A stretch of DNA of 64,000 bases from Synechococcus sp. CCY 0621 (lineage in GTDB: Bacteria; Cyanobacteriota; Cyanobacteriia; PCC-6307; Cyanobiaceae), in the NCBI RefSeq assembly GCF_019038465.1, contig NZ_JAFKRH010000025.1, forward strand, positions 1 to 64,000, read 5' to 3'. The notes under the pieces were generated by a model. That model saw only the letters and a program-made list of their open reading frames with translations, made no database searches and had not been told where the DNA came from. Both the position numbers and the translations under genes were made by a program. This document shows, piece after piece, positions 1 to 10,628 of the stretch (within the stretch, counting starts at the first letter, position 1; each line of letters begins with the position of its first letter).

Positions 1-491
1 ATGACCAAGGGAGCCTGGTCGGAGGTGGTGTCCCAGGCCTCGGCGCCGTCAGCGGTGCTGACGGCCAGCACGCTGCAGGCCCTGCAGCCGCAGCTGGGGC
101 CCATGGCAGCGGTGGTGGGTTTCGCCCCGGGCAGGGAATCGCTCAGAGCCTGATGGCTGTTCATCGCCAGATCTGGTATCGAGATGATGGCGACACCCTT
201 CTGGAAAACGGCCCCATCGCTGCTGGGCGCCAGATGGCTGGATTCCAGTGAGTCCCGAGTGGCTTCAGCGGGGGGAGGTTGTGAGGCCTTGGTGGTGGCC
301 AGAACAGCTGTGATCAGCGGGCTCGATGCCTCCGCTGCCGCTGCAGGGGCGTCGGTAAGAAGGGACAGGGTTGTATCGATGGAACGCTTCGCTGGGCTGG
401 AGAGCTCTGGGAAGAGGAAGGAAGGCGATTGTTGGCCCCCTGCCTGATTGGTGTAAGTCATGGCGAATCGAGGGAGAACAGAAGACGACAT
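1..491 (-). CDS. Partial unknown protein running off the left edge
   Basis: An open frame reads leftward from an ATG at 491-489 (a second ATG lies at 461-459) to the window edge without a stop, giving about 163 residues. The N-terminal two thirds is rich in Ala, Ser, Pro and Thr, with no membrane segment and no clear signal peptide. Near the edge comes a cysteine cluster, SCGCRAC, then an acidic stretch. N-terminal CGC-x-x-C clusters occur in some secreted cyanobacterial metallopeptidases, but that resemblance is only suggestive. No good ribosome binding site precedes either ATG. It lies on the same strand as the HpsJ/PEP-CTERM genes upstream and could belong to the same surface system. The function is not known. 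Confidence 0.45.
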   Translation of the reverse strand, partial: MSSSVLPRFAMTYTNQAGGQQSPSFLFPELSSPAKRSIDTTLSLLTDAPAAAAEASSPLITAVLATTKASQPPPAEATRDSLESSHLAPSSDGAVFQKGVAIISIPDLAMNSHQALSDSLPGAKPTTAAMGPSCGCRACSVLAVSTADGAEAWDTTSDQAPLV

Positions 492-1079
492 CCATCCGCG
501 CCGAGATCACCCAACTGTTGCCAGATGGAGATTCCAAGACGAGTTCAAAGTCATCGCGCCCAGAGCACTGGGGGGATTGACTTTGTTGCTGGGGGGGTGG
601 CGATGGAAGGGAACCTTTGCCACCGGAACGCATCATGGTTCTGCAGCAACCGTGCCGTCTTTGTGCTCAGGCCAATTCAGAAGGAGAGTTCTATGGCCGT
701 GGCTGAGCAAAGCCTTAGGTTTTCACCGGCAGTCCTGTGCGTTCGGGCTCAAGAATCTTTGTAATGGCGGCCAGACGGCCTGTCCCGGGCGATCCTGCGA
801 GGGCTGCTGCTGAGCAGTTTCAGACCCAGGAAAGGAACATCACAAGGGGGAGGTGGAGGGGCAAACCCAAGCTGTACCAAGGCTTCTCGCAAGATCTGGC
901 CGTGAAATTGTAACCCTTTGCAAAGCCTGTCCACGGGCTGAGGGTCAGCGCATCAACGGCCTAAGTGTCGTTAAGCATTTCAGTCGATCTGTGCCGCATC
1001 TGCAGCCGCAGTGTTTTGTGCATCTGACCGATGTCTTAGGGGGATGGTGCCATCCAGGACGCCGCCAGGCAAGGCCTCT
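492..1079. other. Gene-poor spacer, 588 bp
   Basis: No convincing gene is seen on either strand. Short open frames on both strands have no recognisable domain and unlikely composition. A minus-strand stretch near 700-790 reads like the tail of a protein (ends LPVKT then stop) but is closed by a stop just upstream, so it could be a remnant. The spacer separates the edge gene from the HpsJ-like gene that ends at 1080. Confidence 0.4.
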
Positions 1080-1973
1080 TCAGGGGGGAGGCGGAACGCC
1101 TGTTTCCGAGGTGTCGTCCTCTTCGGGCAGCAGCTGGGAGAGGTAGGCATCTTGCCTTGAGGACCCGGTCCGCCCGGGAAGGGACAGACCACTCAGGACC
1201 CCAGCCGCGGGGGGCGCCCCCCGTGGGCTTTGCAGACTGAGCCTGGTGTGCCACTCCACCAGCAAAGGGACGTCACTGCCTTTGCGTTGGGCACCCATGG
1301 CGAAGCCGATGGCCAGGGCGAGTGCGGACAACATCACCCGCAGGCTGTCCTTGAAGGCGGCCTCGATGGCCTGGGGGGCAGGGGCCTGAATCCTGGCCTC
1401 CACTTGCTCTCGCACCACTTTGAGCCGAGCCAGCATCGTGCGCTTGGTTTCCGGCAAGGTGTCCCCAAGGGTTTCGAACCGGATTCCCAGGCTGGGGGTC
1501 TGGATTGCCTGGAGGCGAGCCTGAAGGTTGTCGAGGCTGCTGGCCGAGGTGATGGTGTCCTGCAGCAGATCGAAGGTGCTGGTGGCGGCAGAAAGCTGGC
1601 GGGCGACATTGGCCCTGGCTGTCGCCACGCGCTGCCAGCCGGCATAGGCCTGCAGGGGAACGATGAGCAGGAAGCCGATGACGGCCACGATCGCCAGGCG
1701 GGCCACACCGTCGCGCCGCTTCTGCAGCGTTGGGTTCTCTGGGTCGAGATAGGCCGCCAGATGGAGCAGCCCGAGGGCGACCAGGGGGATGGTGGCCGAA
1801 TCCAGGCAGCTCGAGATGAAGCGCAGCTGCCAGGCGGTGTCCAGCAGGCGAATCGGAAGGACGCTGGCCAGCAGAGTGATGAGGTAGATCACGAACAACG
1901 CGATCGCCATGAAGGCCAGCCGATCGGCCAGGATGGCCGAATCAAACTCTCTGAATTCCTTGGTGCTGGCCAT
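1080..1973 (-). CDS. HpsJ-like membrane protein (copy 1)
   Basis: A 297-residue membrane protein of the HpsJ-like family, known from hormogonium polysaccharide loci and from exosortase/PEP-CTERM systems of cyanobacteria. It has three hydrophobic segments in the first 115 residues (about 22-42, 60-75 and 92-108), then a charged helical middle with regularly spaced leucines, then a fourth segment near 213-228 ending GAQRKG. The C-terminal tail is Pro/Ser/Gly-rich and poorly conserved. It shares the DRL-x-x-x-A-I start, the GLLHLAAYLDP motif and the VPLLVEW motif with the copies at 3187 and 5695. A decayed PEP-CTERM gene lies upstream on the same strand. The exact role of the family is unknown; the link to surface polysaccharide or protein sorting is inferred from family context. 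Confidence 0.75.
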   Translation of the reverse strand: MASTKEFREFDSAILADRLAFMAIALFVIYLITLLASVLPIRLLDTAWQLRFISSCLDSATIPLVALGLLHLAAYLDPENPTLQKRRDGVARLAIVAVIGFLLIVPLQAYAGWQRVATARANVARQLSAATSTFDLLQDTITSASSLDNLQARLQAIQTPSLGIRFETLGDTLPETKRTMLARLKVVREQVEARIQAPAPQAIEAAFKDSLRVMLSALALAIGFAMGAQRKGSDVPLLVEWHTRLSLQSPRGAPPAAGVLSGLSLPGRTGSSRQDAYLSQLLPEEDDTSETGVPPPP

Positions 1974-2359
1974 CAGGAATGCCCGGCTTGAACCCGGCCC
2001 ATTGGCTGGCCAGCGTGACTTTCAGCGTCGATGTCGATGGGATGGTTAGCGAGCGCCACGGAATCGTACGCATTCAGATCGCTGAACTTTCCCGCAGCAG
2101 CTTCATTTCCTGACAATGGATGTTGCCAGTCTTCCAACCGACCGGCCCTTCAATGTGTGACTGCTTATGACCAGGCACGGAGATGCGTCCGTGGTTGGTC
2201 ACCAACCAATAACTCAGGAGTGGCAGGCACTGCTATTGCAGAGGAAACAGGAAAGGAGTATTGATGTAAGCCAGATCACGCCGCTGAGGCGCGTTGCGGG
2301 GCTCCCTCGCTGAAGCAGGCCTGCGCAGGTCTTCATGTACCGATATTGGACTGGGAGTG
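1974..2359. other. Spacer upstream of HpsJ copy 1
   Basis: About 390 bp without a recognisable gene, between the degenerate PEP-CTERM tail and the first HpsJ-like gene. It would hold the promoter for that gene on the minus strand, but no clear -10/-35 pair was found. Part may be former 3' sequence of the pseudogene, because the frame carrying the decayed tail has no nearby stop. Confidence 0.35.
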
Positions 2360-3072
2360 AGGAGCACTGGATCCGCCGCCTTACCCTGTGGCTCCATACG
2401 AAGGCTGCCGCCCCCCACAGGACGGGCAGATGACTAGGAACTTCGTTTGTGTCACGTTCATCAGGAATCCGCCAGAAGGCTTCCCCGGTCTAGCTCTTCT
2501 CCACCACGTTCTGTTCTTTCATTGGCTTTCCTGACGTTCTGGAAGAGAAAGGCCATCTGGCCTTGCTCCAACGGTCGCCAGATTCGAACGAATGGAACAG
2601 GCTATAGAGATGCTCGACAATCTGGTCGGCTTTGGAGATATTGGTGTCGTTGGATTTCAGCGAAAACTGAACCTTCACGTTGGTCCCGCCAGCGATCCCT
2701 GTGCTGCCCAAGCCACTATGGCAACCACTGCGGTTGCACATGCGCGCGCAGAAATCAAAGTTGGCAAAGGGGGCGTAAGGGGCGGTGCGCAGATTGGAGA
2801 TATCCAGTGGCTCATTTGGATTGTCGCGAATACCATTGTTTGAGTTCCCGAATTCTCGCCCGTACCCAGAGGCAGGGGGCTGTCGTTCAGCAGGGAAATC
2901 GCTTCACTTCCATTGCCGCGCAAGGGCTCGTTGAAGGCGAATTCCACCAGGGTGCCGGAGGGGGCCCCAGAAGTCGAAGCCCATCTTGCCCTTGACGCCG
3001 GTGGTGTAGTCGCTCGTACCGGCGATGCCGCCAAGCACCAGGGGGTGTTCCTGACTGTGGCTCGTAGGAATG
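2360..3072 (-). pseudogene. Decayed PEP-CTERM protein gene
   Basis: Pieces of a PEP-CTERM protein like those at 4170 and 6932 can be read in order on the minus strand, but in different frames. Near 3000 comes TTGVKGKMGFDFWGP, matching TGVAGKMTFDF of the intact copy. Next is a stretch reading VEFAFNEP. In another frame come DISNLRTAPYAPFANFDFC and then NVKVQFSLKS, matching the FDFCF and AVSFKIQSS parts of the intact gene. At 2444-2370 is a degraded sorting tail, EVPSHLPVLWGAAAF then VWSHRVRRRI. No single frame connects these blocks and no start or signal peptide survives, so at least two frameshifts have occurred. Position and order match one member of a repeated PEP-CTERM/HpsJ cassette. Confidence 0.7.
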
Positions 3073-3186
3073 CTTGCTTCCGTCACTCTGCTGGAAGGTC
3101 TTTCACCCTGCTCAAGGTTTCTGCGCTGCAGTTCTGCTCCTGCCTCGGTGCCCCCCGGTGCTGTCCTCAGCGGGGCAGGCAGGCGC

Positions 3187-4032
3187 TCAGGGTGTGCGGG
3201 TGGGATCGTGCTCCGGCGAAGTGAGCTGGTCGTAATAGTCAACTTCAGCGACGCTGGGAACTCCACGCGGTGGGCGGCCTCTCGGGTTTTTCATGCTCCA
3301 GAGCGTGAGCAATTCCACGAGCAGCGGCACCTCCTGGTCGCGGCGCTGGGCGGCCATCGCGAAGGCAAGGGCATAAACCATGCTGGTACCCATTAGCCGC
3401 AGGGAGTTTCTGGCCAAGTCCTCGATGGCCTCGGGGGGCGGGGCATTGATTCTCGTCTTCACCTGCTCCTCGACTTCGTTGAGGCGGAGGTGCATTTGGC
3501 GCTTGGTTTCGGGCAATGGCAGGCCCAGGTCCTCAAAGCGGATACCCAGTTCCGGTGACTGAAGGGATCGCAGGCGCGCCTCGAGGTCATCGACGCTGGA
3601 GGCGGAGCTGATCGCTTCGCGGACCAGGGCAAAGTTCCTGTTGGCGCTCGTCAGCTGCGTCGTCACCCGGGCCTTGGCAGTGGCCACGGTGCTCCAGGAG
3701 GCCAAGACTTGTCCTGGGATCAGCAGCAGGAAGCCGATCACGGCCAGGATCGCCAAGCGGGCTAAGCGATCTCTGCGATCTGCCAGAGCGGAGTTGGCAG
3801 GATCCAGGTAAGCCGCCAGATGCAGCAACCCGAGGCCCACCAGGGGGATAGCGGCGGTATCGATCAGGGTCGAGATGGCCTTTCGTTGCCAGAGCGTGTC
3901 AAGTGTCTGGATCGGCAGCATGACTGCCAAGGCCGAGACGACGTACAGAACGAACAGAACGATCGCGATGATTCCAAGTCGATCTGCAAGGACTGAAGAT
4001 TGGAAATCTCTTAATTCTGTCTCGGGAGGCAT
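3187..4032 (-). CDS. HpsJ-like membrane protein (copy 2)
   Basis: A 281-residue paralogue of the proteins at 1080 and 5695. It has three N-terminal hydrophobic segments (about 20-42, 58-75 and 92-110), a soluble helical middle (about 115-210) and a fourth hydrophobic stretch near 213-228 ending in AMAAQRRD, followed by VPLLVELLTLWS and a short Pro/Arg-rich tail. GLGLLHLAAYLDP and PLPETKRQM are shared with copy 1. The start ATG at 4032 gives an N-terminus that aligns with copy 1. The PEP-CTERM gene ending at 4170 lies 137 bp upstream on the same strand, so the two could be co-transcribed. Family membership is fairly sure; biochemical function is not known. Confidence 0.77.
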   Translation of the reverse strand: MPPETELRDFQSSVLADRLGIIAIVLFVLYVVSALAVMLPIQTLDTLWQRKAISTLIDTAAIPLVGLGLLHLAAYLDPANSALADRRDRLARLAILAVIGFLLLIPGQVLASWSTVATAKARVTTQLTSANRNFALVREAISSASSVDDLEARLRSLQSPELGIRFEDLGLPLPETKRQMHLRLNEVEEQVKTRINAPPPEAIEDLARNSLRLMGTSMVYALAFAMAAQRRDQEVPLLVELLTLWSMKNPRGRPPRGVPSVAEVDYYDQLTSPEHDPTRTP

Positions 4033-4169
4033 GAACGAAATCTGGAAAATTCAATTAGACCACTGCAGCTGCGCAAGGCACCTGCATGGAAGTTGAACCT
4101 ATCAAGACCCTATCGGCATCCCTTGTCAATCCGAAAGTGCTGGATTGCGGCAAAGTGAAGCTGGGTGGC

Positions 4170-5030
4170 TCAGGACTCCAGGGAAGGCTGAGCGCGTGTG
4201 GCAGAGATGCGGTGGCGCAGCTTGCGGCTGTAGCCGAAAGCTGCGGCGGCACCGAAGAGAGGAAGCGGACCAGGAACGGCATCCCCGGGGGCAGGGCCAG
4301 GGCCGGTACAAATGCCGTTCTTACAGACAGTTTGTCCAACGACTTTATCACTGGTACTTCCGTTGAGGCTCCCCGTTATGGACTGCCAACGAGTGGCAAT
4401 TGGACATGGTTGGTTGTTTGAGCAGGAGTTCTGGGTGTTATATATATACTGCTGGAAATACTGAGATACGAGATTTGCGCTGGCGAGAGACGATTGAATC
4501 TTGAAGCTAACAGCGGTTTGGCCATTGGGAGGCTTCACGCCGACGTTCCCACTGCCGGCACCGTTGCAATTTTGAGAGCCAACGAAGCAGAAGTCAAAAG
4601 TTCCAACTCCGCCTAGATTTGCGTTCGAAGTGTAGGGAGTCAAGTCGAAGTATTGATCGGCAGTGGCAGTCCCGCCTGGTTCAACCTCAACGAAGGGAGA
4701 TTTCTTGGGATTATATGCTAAAAACTGGAATCCTCCGTCTGTGGTTGTGTCATCTGCTGTTGTTTGGGTTTGGGGTGGGAGGGAGATGGCGAATCCTGTG
4801 ATTACTCCGGTGGTACCACCCAAGGTAGGAGTGTTATTGAATATGCCGACTGCCATCTCATATTCGCCTGGCACGCTTTGCGACTTGGTAAAGTCAAAGG
4901 TCATTTTCCCGGCGACCCCAGTAGCGCCTAAGAAGTTCACATCAAATGCCAAGGCGGGCGCGCTACTTCCTAGGAGCCCTGCGAGGCACCCCGCGGCTAG
5001 GAACAGGTTGCGCTTGGCCAAGGCCGGCAT
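4170..5030 (-). CDS. PEP-CTERM exported protein (copy 1)
   Basis: A 286-residue secreted protein. Residues 1-28 form a signal peptide (basic start, hydrophobic core, cut near APALAF). The middle is Gly/Asn/Thr/Ser-rich with few charges, as in surface proteins, and carries paired cysteines in FDFCFVGSQNC and in the SCSNNQPC and VCKNGIC stretches. The C-terminus carries a proline spacer, the motif VPGPLPLFGAAAAFGYSRK and a basic tail. This is the cyanobacterial form of the PEP-CTERM sorting tail, which in known systems is cut and anchored by an exosortase. The paralogue at 6932 shares the layout and the TFDFCF motif. Attachment to the cell surface is inferred; the ligand or structural role is unknown. 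Confidence 0.8.
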   Translation of the reverse strand: MPALAKRNLFLAAGCLAGLLGSSAPALAFDVNFLGATGVAGKMTFDFTKSQSVPGEYEMAVGIFNNTPTLGGTTGVITGFAISLPPQTQTTADDTTTDGGFQFLAYNPKKSPFVEVEPGGTATADQYFDLTPYTSNANLGGVGTFDFCFVGSQNCNGAGSGNVGVKPPNGQTAVSFKIQSSLASANLVSQYFQQYIYNTQNSCSNNQPCPIATRWQSITGSLNGSTSDKVVGQTVCKNGICTGPGPAPGDAVPGPLPLFGAAAAFGYSRKLRHRISATRAQPSLES

Positions 5031-5053
5031 GACAAAGGGATGAATTTCCCTTC

Positions 5054-5084
5054 ACCCTAGCACAGGATTTCCAGAAAGGCTCAA
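5054..5084 (-). promoter_or_regulatory. Possible sigma-70 promoter of PEP-CTERM copy 1
   Basis: On the minus strand, TTGAGC (5084-5079) and TAGGGT (5059-5054) stand 19 bp apart, with a TG one base before the -10 element (TGC-TAGGGT). The start codon at 5030 lies 23 bp further on. The spacing is longer than ideal and the -10 is a weak match, so this is only a candidate. Confidence 0.25.
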
Positions 5085-5694
5085 GCCCCCCTTAGCCCGT
5101 CCTTAAGTTTCAGGGCTTCCGGGTTCCCTTGCCGTGGAGGCGTGGATTCCCATGAACTGATCTCTAGCTGTCGCTGGGATCAACCGTCCCGTCCCGGTTC
5201 TGGGCCCACGGCTCAGGGCTGTGCGCCCATAGAGCCTCCACCCCGGCTTCGCGTCGCTCGCAGCAAATCCGCTGCAGGAATGAATTCCGTTGGTTCGGGC
5301 GCCCTGACACGCCGGCTTGCCATGGCCGACCCATTCCCCACGATGGGAATGGACCCGAACCTGTGCCTGTTTCAAACGGCCTGTGGGCCTGTTGGCCTGC
5401 CGCTTGTGATTGCAGGGGCCTTTCCCTGCGCGGTGATCTGCGGGACAACGCTGACTGGCCAGGTGGAACTGGGCGATCCGGCGGCTTTCGACCGTCGGGC
5501 CAAGCTGGGACTTCCCAGCGGACCTGACCACCAGCGGATGAGCCCCCACTCGTTCAGCCGGGAGCCGTTGCTGGGGATCCTTAGGGGTTGGGCCGGCTTA
5601 GCGAGGTCCATGACGTTGGGCCAGGGGAAAGCTCTAGGTGCTGAGCCTGCCGGCGCGGGGCAGAATCACCAGGAAGCCCCGGCGTCACTCCCGT
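5085..5694. other. Unassigned spacer, 610 bp
   Basis: Between PEP-CTERM copy 1 and HpsJ copy 3. Open frames exist on both strands: a plus frame 5142-5777 running into the antisense of HpsJ, and minus frames 5103-5549 and 5372-5611. None has a family I recognise. The base composition is richer in GC than the flanking PEP-CTERM genes. The plus frame contains GPVGLPLVIAGAFPCAVI, which could be a chance hydrophobic run. The sequence is extra compared with the shorter spacer at the equivalent place before copy 2 (about 115 bp between 3072 and 3187), so it may be an insertion or a decayed gene. Confidence 0.35.
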
Positions 5695-6591
5695 TCAAGG
5701 CGCGGGATGTGGGCCTTCGTCATCCTGATGGGCCAGGGCTTCGAAGTAGTCCTCTTCGCGCTGGTTGGGGGATTTGAGGAACGTCCTCCCAGCGCTGCCC
5801 TGACCCGACCGGGCAGGCCGGCGTAGGAGCGAACCGAGCAAGCGGCCTGGCAGGGAAGGCCATTCCACCAGGAACGGCACAGGGCTGTTCTTTCGCTGGG
5901 CAAGGGCGGCGAAGGCGATGGCGAAGGCGATGGAAGAGACCATGACGCGGAAGGTCTCCCGCGTGATGCTTTCAGTGGTGGCGGGGTCAACGGGTGCGAA
6001 CCTCACCTTGAACTCACCTTCCGTTCTGTTCACCTGGGCCAGGAGCTGCTGTTTCAGTTGCGGAAGTGGGATGGCTGGAAATGGAGTGTCCCCCAACCGG
6101 ATCTGCAGATCAGGACGTTGGAGTGCCAGTAGACGTTTCTGAAGGTCTTCGGGACTGGTGGCCTTCTCGATGGCCTGACGAACCGCATCGGCCCGTTGGC
6201 TGGCGCTCTCTTGCTGTTGGTTGGAGACCGCGTTGGAGAGGCGATAGGTCTTCCAGACGGCATGGCCCTGGAGGGGAATGAGCAGCAGAAAGCCAAGGGC
6301 GGGCAGGATGGCCAACCGAGTCAGGGCCTGCCGCCGCCTCTGAAGTCGGAAGTCGCCAGGGCACAGGAAAGCGGCCAAATGAAGCAGAGCCAGGCCCAGC
6401 AGGGGAATGGGGGCTCCCTCCACGGCTAGCTTGATGCTGCTGAGTTGCCAGAGGGGATCGAGCAACCTGGGCGGCAGGATGAATGCCAGAACCGAGATCA
6501 GATAGACCGCAAACAGAGCCATGGCGACCAACGCCAGACGATCGGCGAAGATCGCCGCCTCAACATTTCTGCTTTGTGGGCTTTCAATCAT
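5695..6591 (-). CDS. HpsJ-like membrane protein (copy 3)
   Basis: A 298-residue third paralogue. The N-terminus has the same FADRLALVAMALFAVYLI pattern as the other copies; hydrophobic segments lie near 20-42, 60-76 and 92-108. A long polar helical region rich in Gln and Glu (about 115-205) could form a coiled coil. A fourth hydrophobic segment ends in AALAQRKN and is followed by VPFLVEWP. The tail has a basic Leu/Arg part and an acidic end. It is the most diverged copy (GLALLHLAAFL in place of GLLHLAAYL). The PEP-CTERM gene upstream at 6932 has its own terminator, so this gene probably has a separate promoter in the 340-bp spacer. Function unknown beyond the link with PEP-CTERM/exopolysaccharide loci. 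Confidence 0.76.
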   Translation of the reverse strand: MIESPQSRNVEAAIFADRLALVAMALFAVYLISVLAFILPPRLLDPLWQLSSIKLAVEGAPIPLLGLALLHLAAFLCPGDFRLQRRRQALTRLAILPALGFLLLIPLQGHAVWKTYRLSNAVSNQQQESASQRADAVRQAIEKATSPEDLQKRLLALQRPDLQIRLGDTPFPAIPLPQLKQQLLAQVNRTEGEFKVRFAPVDPATTESITRETFRVMVSSIAFAIAFAALAQRKNSPVPFLVEWPSLPGRLLGSLLRRPARSGQGSAGRTFLKSPNQREEDYFEALAHQDDEGPHPAP

Positions 6592-6931
6592 GGAGGCGAC
6601 GTTGAGAGGTCAGGTGATGAGCATTCGGCAGGTGTGAGTGAGAAGTCCAACCCCGTCGCCCAGTTGATAAGGTACGCCTTGGTACTACCTACTCTCGCCC
6701 TCTGATCCTGCCACGCGCTTGGCCTACTGACGAGCCATGATGCTCCGCAAGGGGATTTCTCCATCAAGCGATCAAGAACAACTGTGAGGTGATCCTCTGA
6801 GATGGTGACCTGCTTCCTTTCTCTCTGGAAGGGAAGCAAGAAACAAGCAAATGAAAAAGCCTGCTCAAATTGAGCAGGCCAAAAAATTAGAAATTGTTAG
6901 TGCGGAGTAAGTAGGATTTCAATGAGTTGGC
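6592..6931. other. Spacer between PEP-CTERM copy 2 and HpsJ copy 3
   Basis: A 340-bp AT-richer spacer. Its right end holds the terminator of the PEP-CTERM gene; the left part should hold the promoter of the HpsJ-like gene. No gene or further structure was recognised. Confidence 0.4.
6854..6880 (-). terminator. Rho-independent terminator after PEP-CTERM copy 2
   Basis: GCCTGCTC (6859-6866) pairs with GAGCAGGC (6872-6879); two more A-T pairs can close the loop, giving a strong 8-10 bp stem. Read on the minus strand, it is followed by TTTTT (6858-6854), as expected for an intrinsic terminator. It sits about 50 bp after the stop of the gene at 6932, so that gene is probably a single-gene transcript. 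Confidence 0.85.
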
Positions 6932-7729
6932 TCAGGAGATCAGGCTACTGGCTTGTAGGCGGCGACGAATTTTGCGGCTGTAGCCGAATGCAGCTGCGGC
7001 ACCGAAGAGGGGCAGAGGCCCTGGCACCTCATCCCCTGGTGCCGGCGGGGGGGGAGTGCAGTTGGGATCTGTGGGTGGGCAGACGTAACCAGGCACCTTA
7101 TCGCTGCCGCCATTGGGCCCAATGCCTTGCCAGCGAGTGGCCACTGCATAAGGCTGGGCACTCTGATTGTCAAGAATGAATTGCTTGATCAAGCCAGAAA
7201 CCGCCGTTGTGCTTCCGGCAGTTGAGGCAATCTTAAACTGCACTTTGCCAACGTCGGTCGGCTGCAATCCCGTCGTGCCGTTGCCTGCGCCGGCGCAATT
7301 AGCGCCAGAATCAATGAAGCAGAAATCGAATGTTCCCAGTGGAGGTAGATTGGTGCCTTCGCTAAGCGAAGCCATGTTATATGGAATATTTGGAGCCAGT
7401 GTTACATTACCGCCCGGGTTAGGTTGGACAATCTGAAGGAAGGGAGAAGCCAACGGATTGTAGGTTAAAAATCCGAAGCCATTACTGCTGGGCAGTGATA
7501 GTGCAAACCCGGTCAGTGCTGCTGAGCCCGGAGGGTCGGGGGTGGTATTGGTAACTTCCAAATCCATGTAATAGTCCGAGCCAGTGGCGGTGAAGTCGAA
7601 CTTCATGGTTGCAGTGACGCCAGTGGCTCCTGCAAAGTTCACTAGGAAGTCATCGGCTGCCAAGGCCGGGGCTGCCGCCAAGAGCGTGGTGACGGACCCT
7701 ATGGCTAAGAAGCGGTGAGAGACCTTCAC
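6932..7729 (-). CDS. PEP-CTERM exported protein (copy 2)
   Basis: A 265-residue secreted protein starting with GTG at 7729. Residues 1-24 form a signal peptide ending APALAAD. The mature part is poor in charge and rich in Gly, Asn, Thr and Pro, with paired cysteines in TFDFCFIDSGANC and in YVCPPTDPNC. A proline-rich spacer leads to the sorting tail VPGPLPLFGAAAAFGYSRK and a basic end. It shares the VNFAGATGV and KFDFTATGS blocks with copy 1, which reads VNFLGATGV and TFDFTKSQS, so the two arose by duplication. Surface display by an exosortase encoded elsewhere is inferred from the tail. A clear terminator follows the gene. Role and ligand unknown. Confidence 0.8.
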   Translation of the reverse strand: MKVSHRFLAIGSVTTLLAAAPALAADDFLVNFAGATGVTATMKFDFTATGSDYYMDLEVTNTTPDPPGSAALTGFALSLPSSNGFGFLTYNPLASPFLQIVQPNPGGNVTLAPNIPYNMASLSEGTNLPPLGTFDFCFIDSGANCAGAGNGTTGLQPTDVGKVQFKIASTAGSTTAVSGLIKQFILDNQSAQPYAVATRWQGIGPNGGSDKVPGYVCPPTDPNCTPPPPAPGDEVPGPLPLFGAAAAFGYSRKIRRRLQASSLIS

Positions 7730-7979
7730 GGGTAAAAATCGCCAGAACGTTAGATTTTTAGCATGCTGCCCTCACCAATTCCGGACATGGCGTCAAGAAA
7801 TTTAAGGAAAAAAGCAGCAGATCTGCATCCTTGCTTCATGCCCTTGCGTGCCGGTCGCTGGAAGGGTTCCTCAAGGCTGAAGCCATTCCGGGGTTCTGGC
7901 CCTGCAGGAGTCGGCAGGGCTTAACGATCCTGCCGACCCGTCCCCGAGGCTTAGCGGCTGCCAGGGATGTAGGCCATCC
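7730..7979. other. Upstream region of PEP-CTERM copy 2
   Basis: About 250 bp, AT-rich next to the gene (runs of T and A near 7750-7820 on the minus strand), so it probably holds the promoter. A TTGACG stands near 7785-7790 on the minus strand, but no matching -10 box was found at the right distance. No gene recognised. Confidence 0.35.
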
Positions 7980-8676
7980 CCTGGATCTTCAGCTCTTGGG
8001 CGCCTTACGTTCTTACGGTCCGAAGTTCTGCGGGCCAGCGGCGTTCTGGTCCTGGCTTCGTCAACCACGCAGTGGGGCCCGAGGTTCTGGCAACTGATGG
8101 CTGCTTCGGGCGGCTGGTTGGCCTCCGGCTTGGGGGTGCCGAGAGTGGCCGCTAGCACCGTCTCTGTGGTGGTGGATGTCTCCAGTCGGACGCTCGCCGA
8201 GGAGATCCATCTGCGCCCCAAGCGCATTGGCGACCTTACCCCGCAGGGCGATGGGACACCGGCCGCCATCCGCCTCTGTTCACCTCCTGAGGGTCTCCAT
8301 CGCCCACCGTCCCTGCTGGCAGGAGCGGCAGGCCCGCGTTTGTCGTCTGTTGAGTCCTTTGCCGGCAGCCAGCCAGTGCGCCCTGGCCCAGCAACGGAGT
8401 TGGCCGGCGATCGATGGCGTGCGGCTGTTCGGATCGACCCTCGACGGGATGTTCGGCCTTGCTGCCGATAGGGACCTTGCCATGGAAGGCTTGCGGAAGT
8501 TGGATCTGCTCCAGGCCATGGCGGAAACGGAATCCACGGCTGGCTAAATCCCCGTGGACCTGGCACGTCTGGAAAGCCTGCTGCCGCCCCAATGGCAGCA
8601 GTGGATCCAGGAACGGGGCAAGTGCCTGCTGCGACATCCGACGATCCTGGCAGGCTGCAACCGGATGATCCTCTGA
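7980..8676 (+). pseudogene. Decayed gene of unknown family
   Basis: Two protein-like stretches in different frames follow each other on the plus strand. The first (7980 to about 8260) contains SEVLRASGVLVLASSTTQW, then MAASGGWLASGLGVP and VVVDVSSRTLAEEI. The second (about 8270-8676) contains GSTLDGMFGLAADRDLAM, then an in-frame TAA at 8545-8547, then DLARLESLLPPQWQQWIQER and ILAGCNRMIL before a stop at 8674-8676. The blocks read like ordinary cyanobacterial protein, but a frameshift and an internal stop break them. I do not recognise the family. The alternative is chance open frames in GC-rich DNA. Confidence 0.4.
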
Positions 8677-8822
8677 GCCCCCTCCCCGCGGAGCGCTCGA
8701 AGCTGGACCGGCTGGCGGAGTGCTTGCGGGTCATCGAACGGCCCATGGATGCGTCTCCCCCCTCCCCGCTCCGCCGGGGAGGATGATCGACACCACGCCT
8801 GCCGTTTCAGCGGCTTCGCTCC

Positions 8823-10628
8823 ATGCTGCGCATCGCCCACGCCCTGAACAGCCAGCTGCTGGGGGCCCTGGAGAGCGCGTTCCCCGAGGCGTCTGCCTCC
8901 GCCCGTGTCGCTGGCGCGCCGCTGGATCCCCAGCTGGGGCCCGCCTCAAAGCCGGAGTTTGGTGATTTTCAGGCCAATGGCGCCCTGGCCCTGGCCCGGC
9001 CCCTGCGCCTGGCCCCCCGTGCGATTGCCTCAGCGATCGTCGCGCAGCTGGAGGCCGACCCCGCCGTCGCGGCTCTGTGCCTGCAGCCGCAGATCGCCGG
9101 CCCGGGCTTCATCAACCTCACCCTCCGGCCCGAGGTGCTGGCCGCCGAGGTGGCTCGCTGCCTGGCCGATCCCCGGCTGGGGGTGGAGGCCGTGGCCGGC
9201 GGCGGTGCCCCGGTGGTGGTGGATTTCTCCAGCCCCAACATCGCCAAGGAGATGCACGTGGGCCACCTGCGCTCCACGATCATCGGCGACGCCCTGGCCC
9301 GGGTGCTGGAGTTCCGCGGCCATGCGGTGCTGCGGCTCAACCACGTCGGCGACTGGGGCACCCAGTTCGGCATGCTCATCACCCACCTCAAGCAGGTGGC
9401 TCCCGAGGCCCTCGACACCGCCGACGCCGTCGACCTGGGCGACCTGGTGGCCTTCTACCGCCAGGCCAAGGCCCGCTTCGACAGCGACGAAACCTTCCAG
9501 GCCACCGCGCGCGAAGAAGTGGTGAAGCTGCAGAGCGGCGATCCGACCAGCCGCCGCGCCTGGCAACTGCTGTGCGACCAGTCGCGCCGCGAGTTTCAGC
9601 TCCTCTACGACCGCCTCGACATCCGCCTCGACGAGCGCGGTGAATCCTTCTACAACCCCTATCTGGAGGCGGTGGTGGCCGACCTGGACGCCGCAGGCCT
9701 GCTGGTGAGCGATGGCGGCGCCCAGTGTGTGTTTCTTGAGGCAGACGACGGCACGGCGAGCCAGGCGCCGCCGGTGATCGTGCGCAAGAGCGACGGCGGC
9801 TTCAACTACGCCACCACCGATCTGGCCGCCATCCGCTACCGCTTTGCCGCACCCCCCGCAGGCGATGGGGCCCGGCGCGTGATCTACGTCACCGACGCCG
9901 GCCAGGCCAGCCATTTCGCCGGGGTGTTCCAGGTGGCCCGCCGAGCCGATTGGATTCCTGAGGGCGGGCGGCTGGAGCACGTGCCCTTCGGCCTGGTGCA
10001 GGGGGAGGACGGCAAGAAGCTCAAGACCCGTTCCGGCGACACCGTGCGACTCAAGGAGCTGCTGGATGAGGCGGTGGAGCGCTGCGAGGCCGACCTGCGC
10101 CGCCGCCTGGCCGAGGAGCAACGCCAGGAGGACGGGGCCTTCATTGAGGAGGTCGCCACCACCGTGGGCCTGGCGGCGGTGAAGTACGCGGATCTGTCCA
10201 CCAACCGGATCACGAACTACCAGTTCAGCTTCGACCGCATGCTCGCCCTCAGCGGCAACACTGCTCCCTACCTTCTCTACGCGGTGGTGCGCATCGCTGG
10301 GATCGCGCGCAAAGGTGGTGCCGATGCCGCCGGCGCCGCATTCCCAGCGCCCCTGGTGTTCGTCGAACACCAGGAGTGGGCGCTGGCGCGCCAGCTGCTC
10401 CAGTTTGACGCCGTGATCCTGGAGGTGGAGCAGGAACTGCTGCCCAACCGGCTGTGCAGCTACCTCTTTGAACTCTCCCAGGTGTTCAACCGCTTCTACG
10501 ACCAGGTGCCCGTGCTCAAGGCCGAAGAGCCCGCCCGCGGATCGCGGCTGGCGCTCTGCCGCCTCACCGCCGACACCCTCAAGCTGGGCCTGGGCCTGCT
10601 GGGCATCCCTACCCTGGAGCGGATGTGA
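8823..10628 (+). CDS. argS: Arginyl-tRNA synthetase
   Basis: A class I aminoacyl-tRNA synthetase that attaches arginine to tRNA-Arg in the cytosol, using ATP. The 601-residue length is normal. An N-terminal Add1-type domain includes [10 protein letters not shown]. The HIGH-type signature appears as HVGHLRST at about residue 140, preceded by [15 protein letters not shown]. The KMSKS-equivalent region is the [15 protein letters not shown] stretch typical of ArgRS, and the anticodon-binding DALR domain ends the protein. The ATG start fits the family N-terminus. Base composition jumps to very GC-rich here compared with the region to the left. The last 20 bases overlap the convergent speG-like gene. 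Confidence 0.97.

Follow-up and report, generated by a model that had tools for sequence, protein, structure and literature searches.

The PEP-CTERM/EpsH exosortase system (Haft et al. 2006, PMC1569441) has Sec-exported proteins that end in a C-terminal motif followed by a membrane helix and a basic cluster, and that occur as many fast-evolving paralogues; the part of that paper we consulted describes no membrane protein dedicated to each substrate. In Nostoc punctiforme, cyanoexosortase B is tied to several PEP-CTERM proteins and is needed for surface adhesion (PMC12188702), and HpsJ is absent as a word from the main text of that study. HpsJ (family NF038305) is known from the hormogonium polysaccharide locus (Npun_F0077, PMC10581220). 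The cyanoexosortase A (CrtA) system brings a PFE-CTERM substrate (NF050011), an HpsJ-like protein (HpsJ_like_A, NF050013) and an exosortase together in one neighbourhood. Here we analyse a locus that shares elements with these systems, an array of PEP-CTERM and HpsJ-like genes found in a 64,000-nucleotide stretch of Synechococcus sp. CCY 0621 (contig NZ_JAFKRH010000025.1, positions 1 to 64,000), which we call the window. Its HpsJ-like proteins differ from the Npun_F0077 type in that they score 32.4-50.7 bits against the HpsJ equivalog NF050014, for which the cut-off is 260. It also differs from the CrtA system, which has one HpsJ beside the exosortase, whereas here HpsJ is multiplied, lies away from the main exosortase locus, and stands beside substrates with VPGPLP tails. 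No such PEP-CTERM/HpsJ pairing appears in titles or abstract openings among the matches listed from the open-licence literature on HpsJ and exosortases.

The array occupies the minus strand from 1080 to 7729. In transcription order it reads PEP-CTERM/HpsJ, PEP-CTERM/HpsJ, and broken PEP-CTERM/HpsJ, and it adjoins a gene that we take to be argS. The reading that we favour, with a probability of about 0.45, is that the HpsJ-like proteins are generic accessories of the exosortase pathway that have multiplied in this genus and have come to be placed beside their PEP-CTERM cargoes, acting by a mechanism that we infer.

Pairing is seen throughout the 12 genomes that we counted, out of at least 42 in the host genus, so that both the repeated physical pairing and its presence in related genomes, as proposed in the preliminary description of this locus, hold up. 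The counts use 150 listed of 164 PEP-CTERM tails, and 114 HpsJ matches merged to 110. With our own HpsJ profile, at least 104 of the 110 lie within 2.6 kb of a listed VPGPLP-type PEP-CTERM tail, where random placement would put about 2.7; the 110 include fragments, copies sharing one PEP-CTERM signal, and the 1080-1973 gene of the array itself, whose nearest intact signal is that of the next cassette. This profile was built from paired copies only, and as a check we recounted with the curated family NF038305, which gives 116 matches in the 12 genomes, 6-13 per genome. These matches include a core copy per genome. The 12 core copies are the strongest matches (102-114 bits). Eight of these have an open frame of 216 amino acids (aa), and no listed PEP-CTERM tail lies within 2.6 kb of any core copy. 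For the non-core copies, at least 98 of 104 have a listed signal within that distance. A stricter assignment starts from 105 HpsJ open reading frames (ORFs) of at least 200 aa, of which 93 have a PEP-CTERM ORF near and 86 form one-to-one pairs. Seen from the cargo side, 97 of the 150 listed tails have an HpsJ near, and the numbers of HpsJ and PEP-CTERM genes per genome increase together (rho 0.78, n = 12). The genome of the window (G000) has 11 HpsJ-family matches and, with E values of at most 1e-6, 16 PEP-CTERM tails; its core copy is a solitary 216-aa HpsJ (L043:6960-7607, G000:C15:146959-147609). In a survey of 121 genomes of the host family (15 of them without a match, and not itemised singly), nine genomes of the host genus have 5-17 HpsJ-family matches, core copy included, and the other genera have 0-5 among the genomes listed. 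The exception is G137, a genome of another genus with 10 HpsJ matches, of which three are seen paired with PEP-CTERM genes, a possible second expansion of HpsJ. Judged from these sequences, the array is one variable site among the PEP-CTERM/HpsJ cassettes found across the genus.

In other genera, HpsJ is often found beside the enzyme. We chose 16 second-copy HpsJ loci from other genera of the host family and four regions of G137, a selection of our own from all the copies listed. In 12 of the 16, HpsJ immediately precedes an exosortase gene; with the longest ORFs taken, the two genes mostly touch or overlap. One of these 12 has the order PEP-CTERM/HpsJ/exosortase. One of the remaining loci is flanked on both sides by PEP-CTERM genes, and three have neither neighbour. 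NCBIfam models confirm HpsJ and the exosortase signature TIGR04178, above its cut-off, in three of the second-copy loci. Amongst 15 genomes outside the family, five have an exosortase within 1 kb of HpsJ, and in one of the five the HpsJ match is weak (46 bits). In two out-of-family genomes, genes for a CTERM protein, HpsJ and an exosortase follow one another, the second with a tail judged by eye; at locus L255 the order is a PFE-CTERM protein, an HpsJ_like_A (201.5 bits, above cut-off) and an exosortase. Within the host genus, G004 keeps such an operon at a second locus, where HpsJ and exosortase overlap. A midpoint-rooted tree of 50 HpsJ proteins is divided by a 96/92 branch. The side with 29 rows holds the paired copies, along with the exosortase-linked copies of G004, L293 and L302, the G137 copies, and two unpaired copies of another genus. 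The core copies and ten other exosortase-operon copies are on the other side. A single origin of the paired HpsJ of the genus is not rejected (approximately unbiased, AU, test p = 0.18). Because HpsJ adjoins the cargo in this genus and the enzyme in others, we read it as a putative cargo-presenting membrane accessory, and the direction of its move would be from enzyme to cargo.

The family name suggests another function. In keeping with the name that HpsJ has in Nostoc, the HpsJ-like proteins could be factors for polysaccharide assembly, with each cassette tethering one polysaccharide type. NF050014 is indeed named hormogonium polysaccharide biosynthesis protein HpsJ, and the exosortase gene of this genome sits among genes that, by eye, resemble polysaccharide export. 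We consider this account improbable, since the consistent neighbours found for HpsJ are the cargo or the exosortase, and in positions 1-9000 of the window we recognise by eye no sugar-polymer gene, although the neighbouring genes were not surveyed with models.

The preliminary description had proposed that each HpsJ may be matched to its own exported partner; taken strictly, each would recognise only that neighbour. Several signals agree with such a match. Orthologous partners stay together across genomes, with 381 of 420 best-hit comparisons in agreement (39-53 of 353-369 in eight shuffles); the divergences of HpsJ and cargo covary (rho 0.76 over 52 orthologous pairs, which are not independent); and the trees match for two of the array types, C and D, introduced below. 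Partners staying together across genomes is what linkage alone predicts; the informative test is given by paralogues within a genome. When array pairs are included, HpsJ and cargo similarities of such paralogues correlate (rho 0.16, with one of 400 shuffles as high), but linkage and local duplication would produce all of these supporting signals too. Outside the array, the two similarities show no correlation (rho 0.00, a value reached by 215 of 400 shuffles). There are four dispersed cases of close HpsJ copies within one genome (normalised score 0.55-0.74), and in three of them (G000, G013 and G044) the cargoes have no BLAST similarity. In G013, a PEP-CTERM amidase stands beside one HpsJ, and the other HpsJ, 82% identical in its periplasmic part, has an unrelated 275-aa cargo. 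Because these close copies accompany an amidase and an unrelated protein, HpsJ does not simply track the exported domain of the cargo. An orphan HpsJ is also still under constraint, and the type-A HpsJ of our genome has a cargo of another lineage (both described below). We regard a partner specific to each cargo as unlikely, and this comparison does not support the proposed matching.

Tracking of the sorting tail by HpsJ is not supported either, with rho 0.02-0.08 for the whole protein and for the first membrane part, and negative values for the periplasmic part. Outside the array, the last membrane helix of HpsJ taken alone has a weak trend with the cargo (rho 0.07, matched or exceeded in 35 of 400 shuffles). 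Apparent HpsJ fusions, open frames of 550, 590 and 885 aa (G006, G044 and G003) were also set aside, as their N-terminal parts resemble the wrong frame of high-GC sequence.

The history of the array itself can be followed in relatives. Using the first 140 argS residues as a marker, we find an array beside argS in 9 of the 11 other genomes read. HpsJ and PEP-CTERM trees of 10 genomes distinguish four cassette types, A, D, B and C, which where present are always in that order from argS; our genome has types A, B and C. The two trees agree for types C and D. For type A they do so in every genome but this one, and they agree only in part for type B, whose cargoes do not form a resolved clade. Our 5695 HpsJ is of type A, but its neighbouring cargo 6932 branches with 4170, apart from the other type-A cargoes (98/96). 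Forcing 6932 with the type-A cargoes is rejected (AU p = 0.034) and placing both of our cargoes with type B is not (p = 0.09), with long branches involved. The congruent branching that the preliminary description put forward as a check is thus found for types C and D, for type A elsewhere, and in part for type B, and neither for our own type A nor, as a correlation, outside the array. Local duplication of HpsJ agrees with its proposal that the pair was duplicated as a unit, as our three array HpsJ and two of G023 form one clade (98/96), and so does the homology of all array cargoes, which can be aligned.

Some cassettes have an HpsJ and no cargo gene. For type C this is so here, where the cargo gene is broken, and in G004, where no cargo ORF is found; the type-B HpsJ of G006 and G013 have no cargo ORF of their own. 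Between our genome and G004, neither with a cargo, the type-C HpsJ have a ratio of nonsynonymous to synonymous substitution rates (dN/dS) of 0.23 over 281 codons, similar to the 0.15-0.21 of paired type-C copies. The claim that one cargo gene decays while its HpsJ persists is supported. Between the same two genomes, dS is 0.06-0.10 for three dispersed HpsJ, 0.13 for type C, and 0.80 and 1.12 for types A and B; the array A and B cargoes are near saturation, and argS has a proportion of synonymous differences (pS) of 0.22 over 140 codons. We take this contrast between types A and B and the other HpsJ to mean that a divergent allele probably replaced the A-B block.

These observations also suit a purely historical account, in which cargo and HpsJ formed one ancestral pair that multiplied and dispersed as a block, and in which their adjacency means nothing functionally. 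It would explain the single clade of array HpsJ, the homology of the array cargoes and the cassettes that look block-replaced, and the dispersed cargoes may share an ancestry too distant for BLAST to detect. Against it, adjacency survives rearrangement, as among the listed matches the tail is upstream of HpsJ on the same strand in 72 cases, upstream on the opposite strand in 19, downstream on the opposite strand in 9 and downstream on the same strand in 4. Moreover, the cargoes include an enzyme, the amidase; a toxin-antitoxin-like pair lying between partners has removed neither gene; and three pairs are also found in G137, in another genus. We regard history alone as a rather doubtful explanation, if less so than cargo-specific matching.

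A terminator-like hairpin is often found between the cargo and HpsJ genes. Our rule requires 7-12 paired positions in the stem, no more than one mismatch, and a T run behind it, all within 120 nucleotides (nt) past the PEP-CTERM stop. With the cargo upstream on the same strand, and for any gap, 30 of 62 pairs have such a hairpin, compared with 1/62 when the reverse strand is scanned, a mean of 0.95 in shuffles, and 1/62 in the 120 nt after HpsJ. Other pair arrangements have it in 5 of 24. In the window, it is found in the first cassette; the other two cassettes either have no hairpin by the same rule or have no cargo. For the window region overall, terminator-like sites are not above shuffles (7 versus 9.2). 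As a sequence feature, the hairpin may lower HpsJ relative to cargo, or may simply end the cargo transcript.

Several results weigh against the generic accessory. HpsJ is not required beside every cargo, since 53 of the 150 listed PEP-CTERM signals have none nearby. In a wider named set, 54 of 87 HpsJ ORFs (79 loci) have a PEP-CTERM ORF within 2 kb and just 1 of the 79 loci has an exosortase, so that the pairing rule holds for a part of the group. Of the 33 unpaired ORFs, 27 were examined with crude rules, and these have no convincing alternative cargo. Three of the 15 out-of-family genomes have HpsJ and no exosortase match, and none of 21 main exosortase loci of the host genus has HpsJ within 1.5 kb. 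Because ten of the exosortase-operon HpsJ group in a clade of their own, away from the paired copies, and the copy of the PEP-CTERM/HpsJ/exosortase trio (L302) is a long branch, descent of the paired HpsJ from an operon copy is not proven. In one of the four cases of close dispersed HpsJ, that of G003, the cargoes are related (0.24). No structure in the PDB matches the HpsJ model, or the PEP-CTERM model, at E 0.001 or better. Finally, the sole exosortase gene of this genome has an in-frame stop, yet the cassettes stay open. The preliminary description had suggested looking for a cyanoexosortase elsewhere in the genome, and the gene is present (L044, contig C10, minus strand, match 168118-168813, ORF to 168987), but it is interrupted, scoring 99.7 bits to CrtA (cut-off 150) up to a TAG that shortly precedes the last conserved His motif. 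Among 42 matches in 40 genomes no other has a stop, and the copies of relatives are uninterrupted. The TAG may be a sequencing error; if the stop is real, the cargo would be uncleaved in this strain.

In Table 1, we collect the features of the array. The ORF listing returns the five intact genes exactly where the preliminary description had placed them, on that strand and in that order. For the HpsJ family NF038305 (NCBIfam, cut-off 60 bits), the 5695 and 1080 proteins are above the cut-off and the 3187 protein is just under it, yet this last one is 53% identical to another array HpsJ (and 40% to the third). The best-scoring subfamily is HpsJ_like_A, 'cyanoexosortase A-associated', with 64.8, 72.5 and 84.8 bits (the last for type A), and none of the three reaches its equivalog cut-off of 140 bits. 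The two intact PEP-CTERM proteins are 50% identical and both terminate in VPGPLPLFGAAAAFGYSRK[LI]R.R, the motif-helix-basic signature of PEP-CTERM proteins. Their architecture is a signal peptide (by eye) and a VPGPLP-helix-SRKLRRR tail, with the C-terminal helix at 244-262 in a low-confidence model. They do not reach the cut-off of 60 bits of the curated PEP-cistern model NF033947, no other NCBIfam model is listed for them, and a Pfam search of the window proteins has nothing above cut-off. For the broken gene, five relatives have type-C proteins that can be aligned to 2355-3029, one frame matching them at 45-53% identity and an extra piece in a different frame at 72-74%; the first 37 or so residues of these proteins have no match, and the tail of the broken gene is degenerate (VPSHLP...SHRVRRR). 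In the approximately 1.1 kb between the first cassette and argS (7730-8822) we recognise no gene, and the one ORF tested has no Pfam match; this may be decayed coding sequence.

Table 1. Coordinates of the array features in the window, its conserved flank, and the amidase cargo of G013.
Feature	Position	Strand	Evidence
PEP-CTERM protein, 265 aa, next to argS, neighbour of type-A HpsJ	6932..7729	-	ORF; VPGPLP tail; PEP-cistern 47.2 bits, sub-threshold
Terminator-like hairpin and T run, 10-pair stem, between PEP-CTERM and HpsJ genes	6858..6880	-	Hairpin scan
HpsJ-like membrane protein type A, 298 aa	5695..6591	-	NF038305 63.0 bits; type-A clade
PEP-CTERM protein, 286 aa, beside type-B HpsJ	4170..5030	-	ORF; tail; PEP-cistern 28.1 bits; alignment with array cargoes
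HpsJ-like membrane protein type B, 281 aa	3187..4032	-	NF038305 57.3 bits; type-B clade; predicted structure, pLDDT 87
Broken PEP-CTERM gene type C (pseudogene)	2355..3029	-	tblastn with type-C proteins of relatives; TAG inside
HpsJ-like membrane protein type C, 297 aa, cargo lost	1080..1973	-	NF038305 62.4 bits; type-C clade; dN/dS 0.23
argS (presumed), conserved flank marking the array locus	8823..10628	+	First 140 residues beside array in 9 other genomes
PEP-CTERM amidase, 572 aa, 39 nt from HpsJ gene	L182:826-2541 (G013:C2:149483-151201)		PF01425, 236 bits

Elsewhere in this genome, ten other PEP-CTERM proteins were compared with Pfam, and nine have no match at E 0.05; the tenth is a GDSL lipase without a paired HpsJ (L038:5985-7151, G000:C10:49981-51150). 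At one further pair (L030, G000:C31:153331-154129), genes for a GNAT acetyltransferase and a TacA-type antitoxin (PF08681, 61 bits) lie on the opposite strand between the PEP-CTERM gene and HpsJ. A similar arrangement is seen in G003 (C25), and the GNAT gene also in G013 (C11), with Pfam run on our own copies only.

The predicted structure of the 3187-4032 HpsJ (predicted local distance difference test, pLDDT, 87) is nearly all helical. With membrane limits set by eye, it has a membrane part from which a 63-residue helix (81-143) extends outwards; a second helix (173-196) runs back, and residues 200-227 form the final membrane helix. The PEP-CTERM model has pLDDT 61. In the mechanism that we propose, the cargo would be exported by Sec and anchored in the inner membrane via its C-terminal helix. 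The HpsJ-like protein, with a membrane helix extending as a long periplasmic helix, would be a low-dose generic accessory that holds or presents the tethered cargo to the cyanoexosortase, and it might also serve the hand-off of the cargo to surface or polysaccharide. In the host genus, the accessory would have left the exosortase operon, multiplied, and been set beside cargoes, so that cargo and helper could be duplicated, exchanged and acquired in one piece, with the hairpin yielding much cargo and little helper. The absence of parallel divergence outside the array, the amidase cargo and the constrained orphan HpsJ argue for the generic helper, and the dS contrast with G004 suggests exchange of cassettes as units. 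That the accessory switched sides, copied onto the substrates, with strains varying their surfaces by trading cargo-plus-helper cassettes that have built-in dosage control at loci like argS, is a tentative extension, which we hold as possible and less probable than the generic role.

Should the helper indeed go with the cargo in one genus and with the enzyme in sister genera, HpsJ probably acts where cargo and enzyme make contact. HpsJ, named for a polysaccharide locus, would then become a testable part of the sorting pathway. Such cassettes could also explain how surface proteins are swapped between picocyanobacterial strains.

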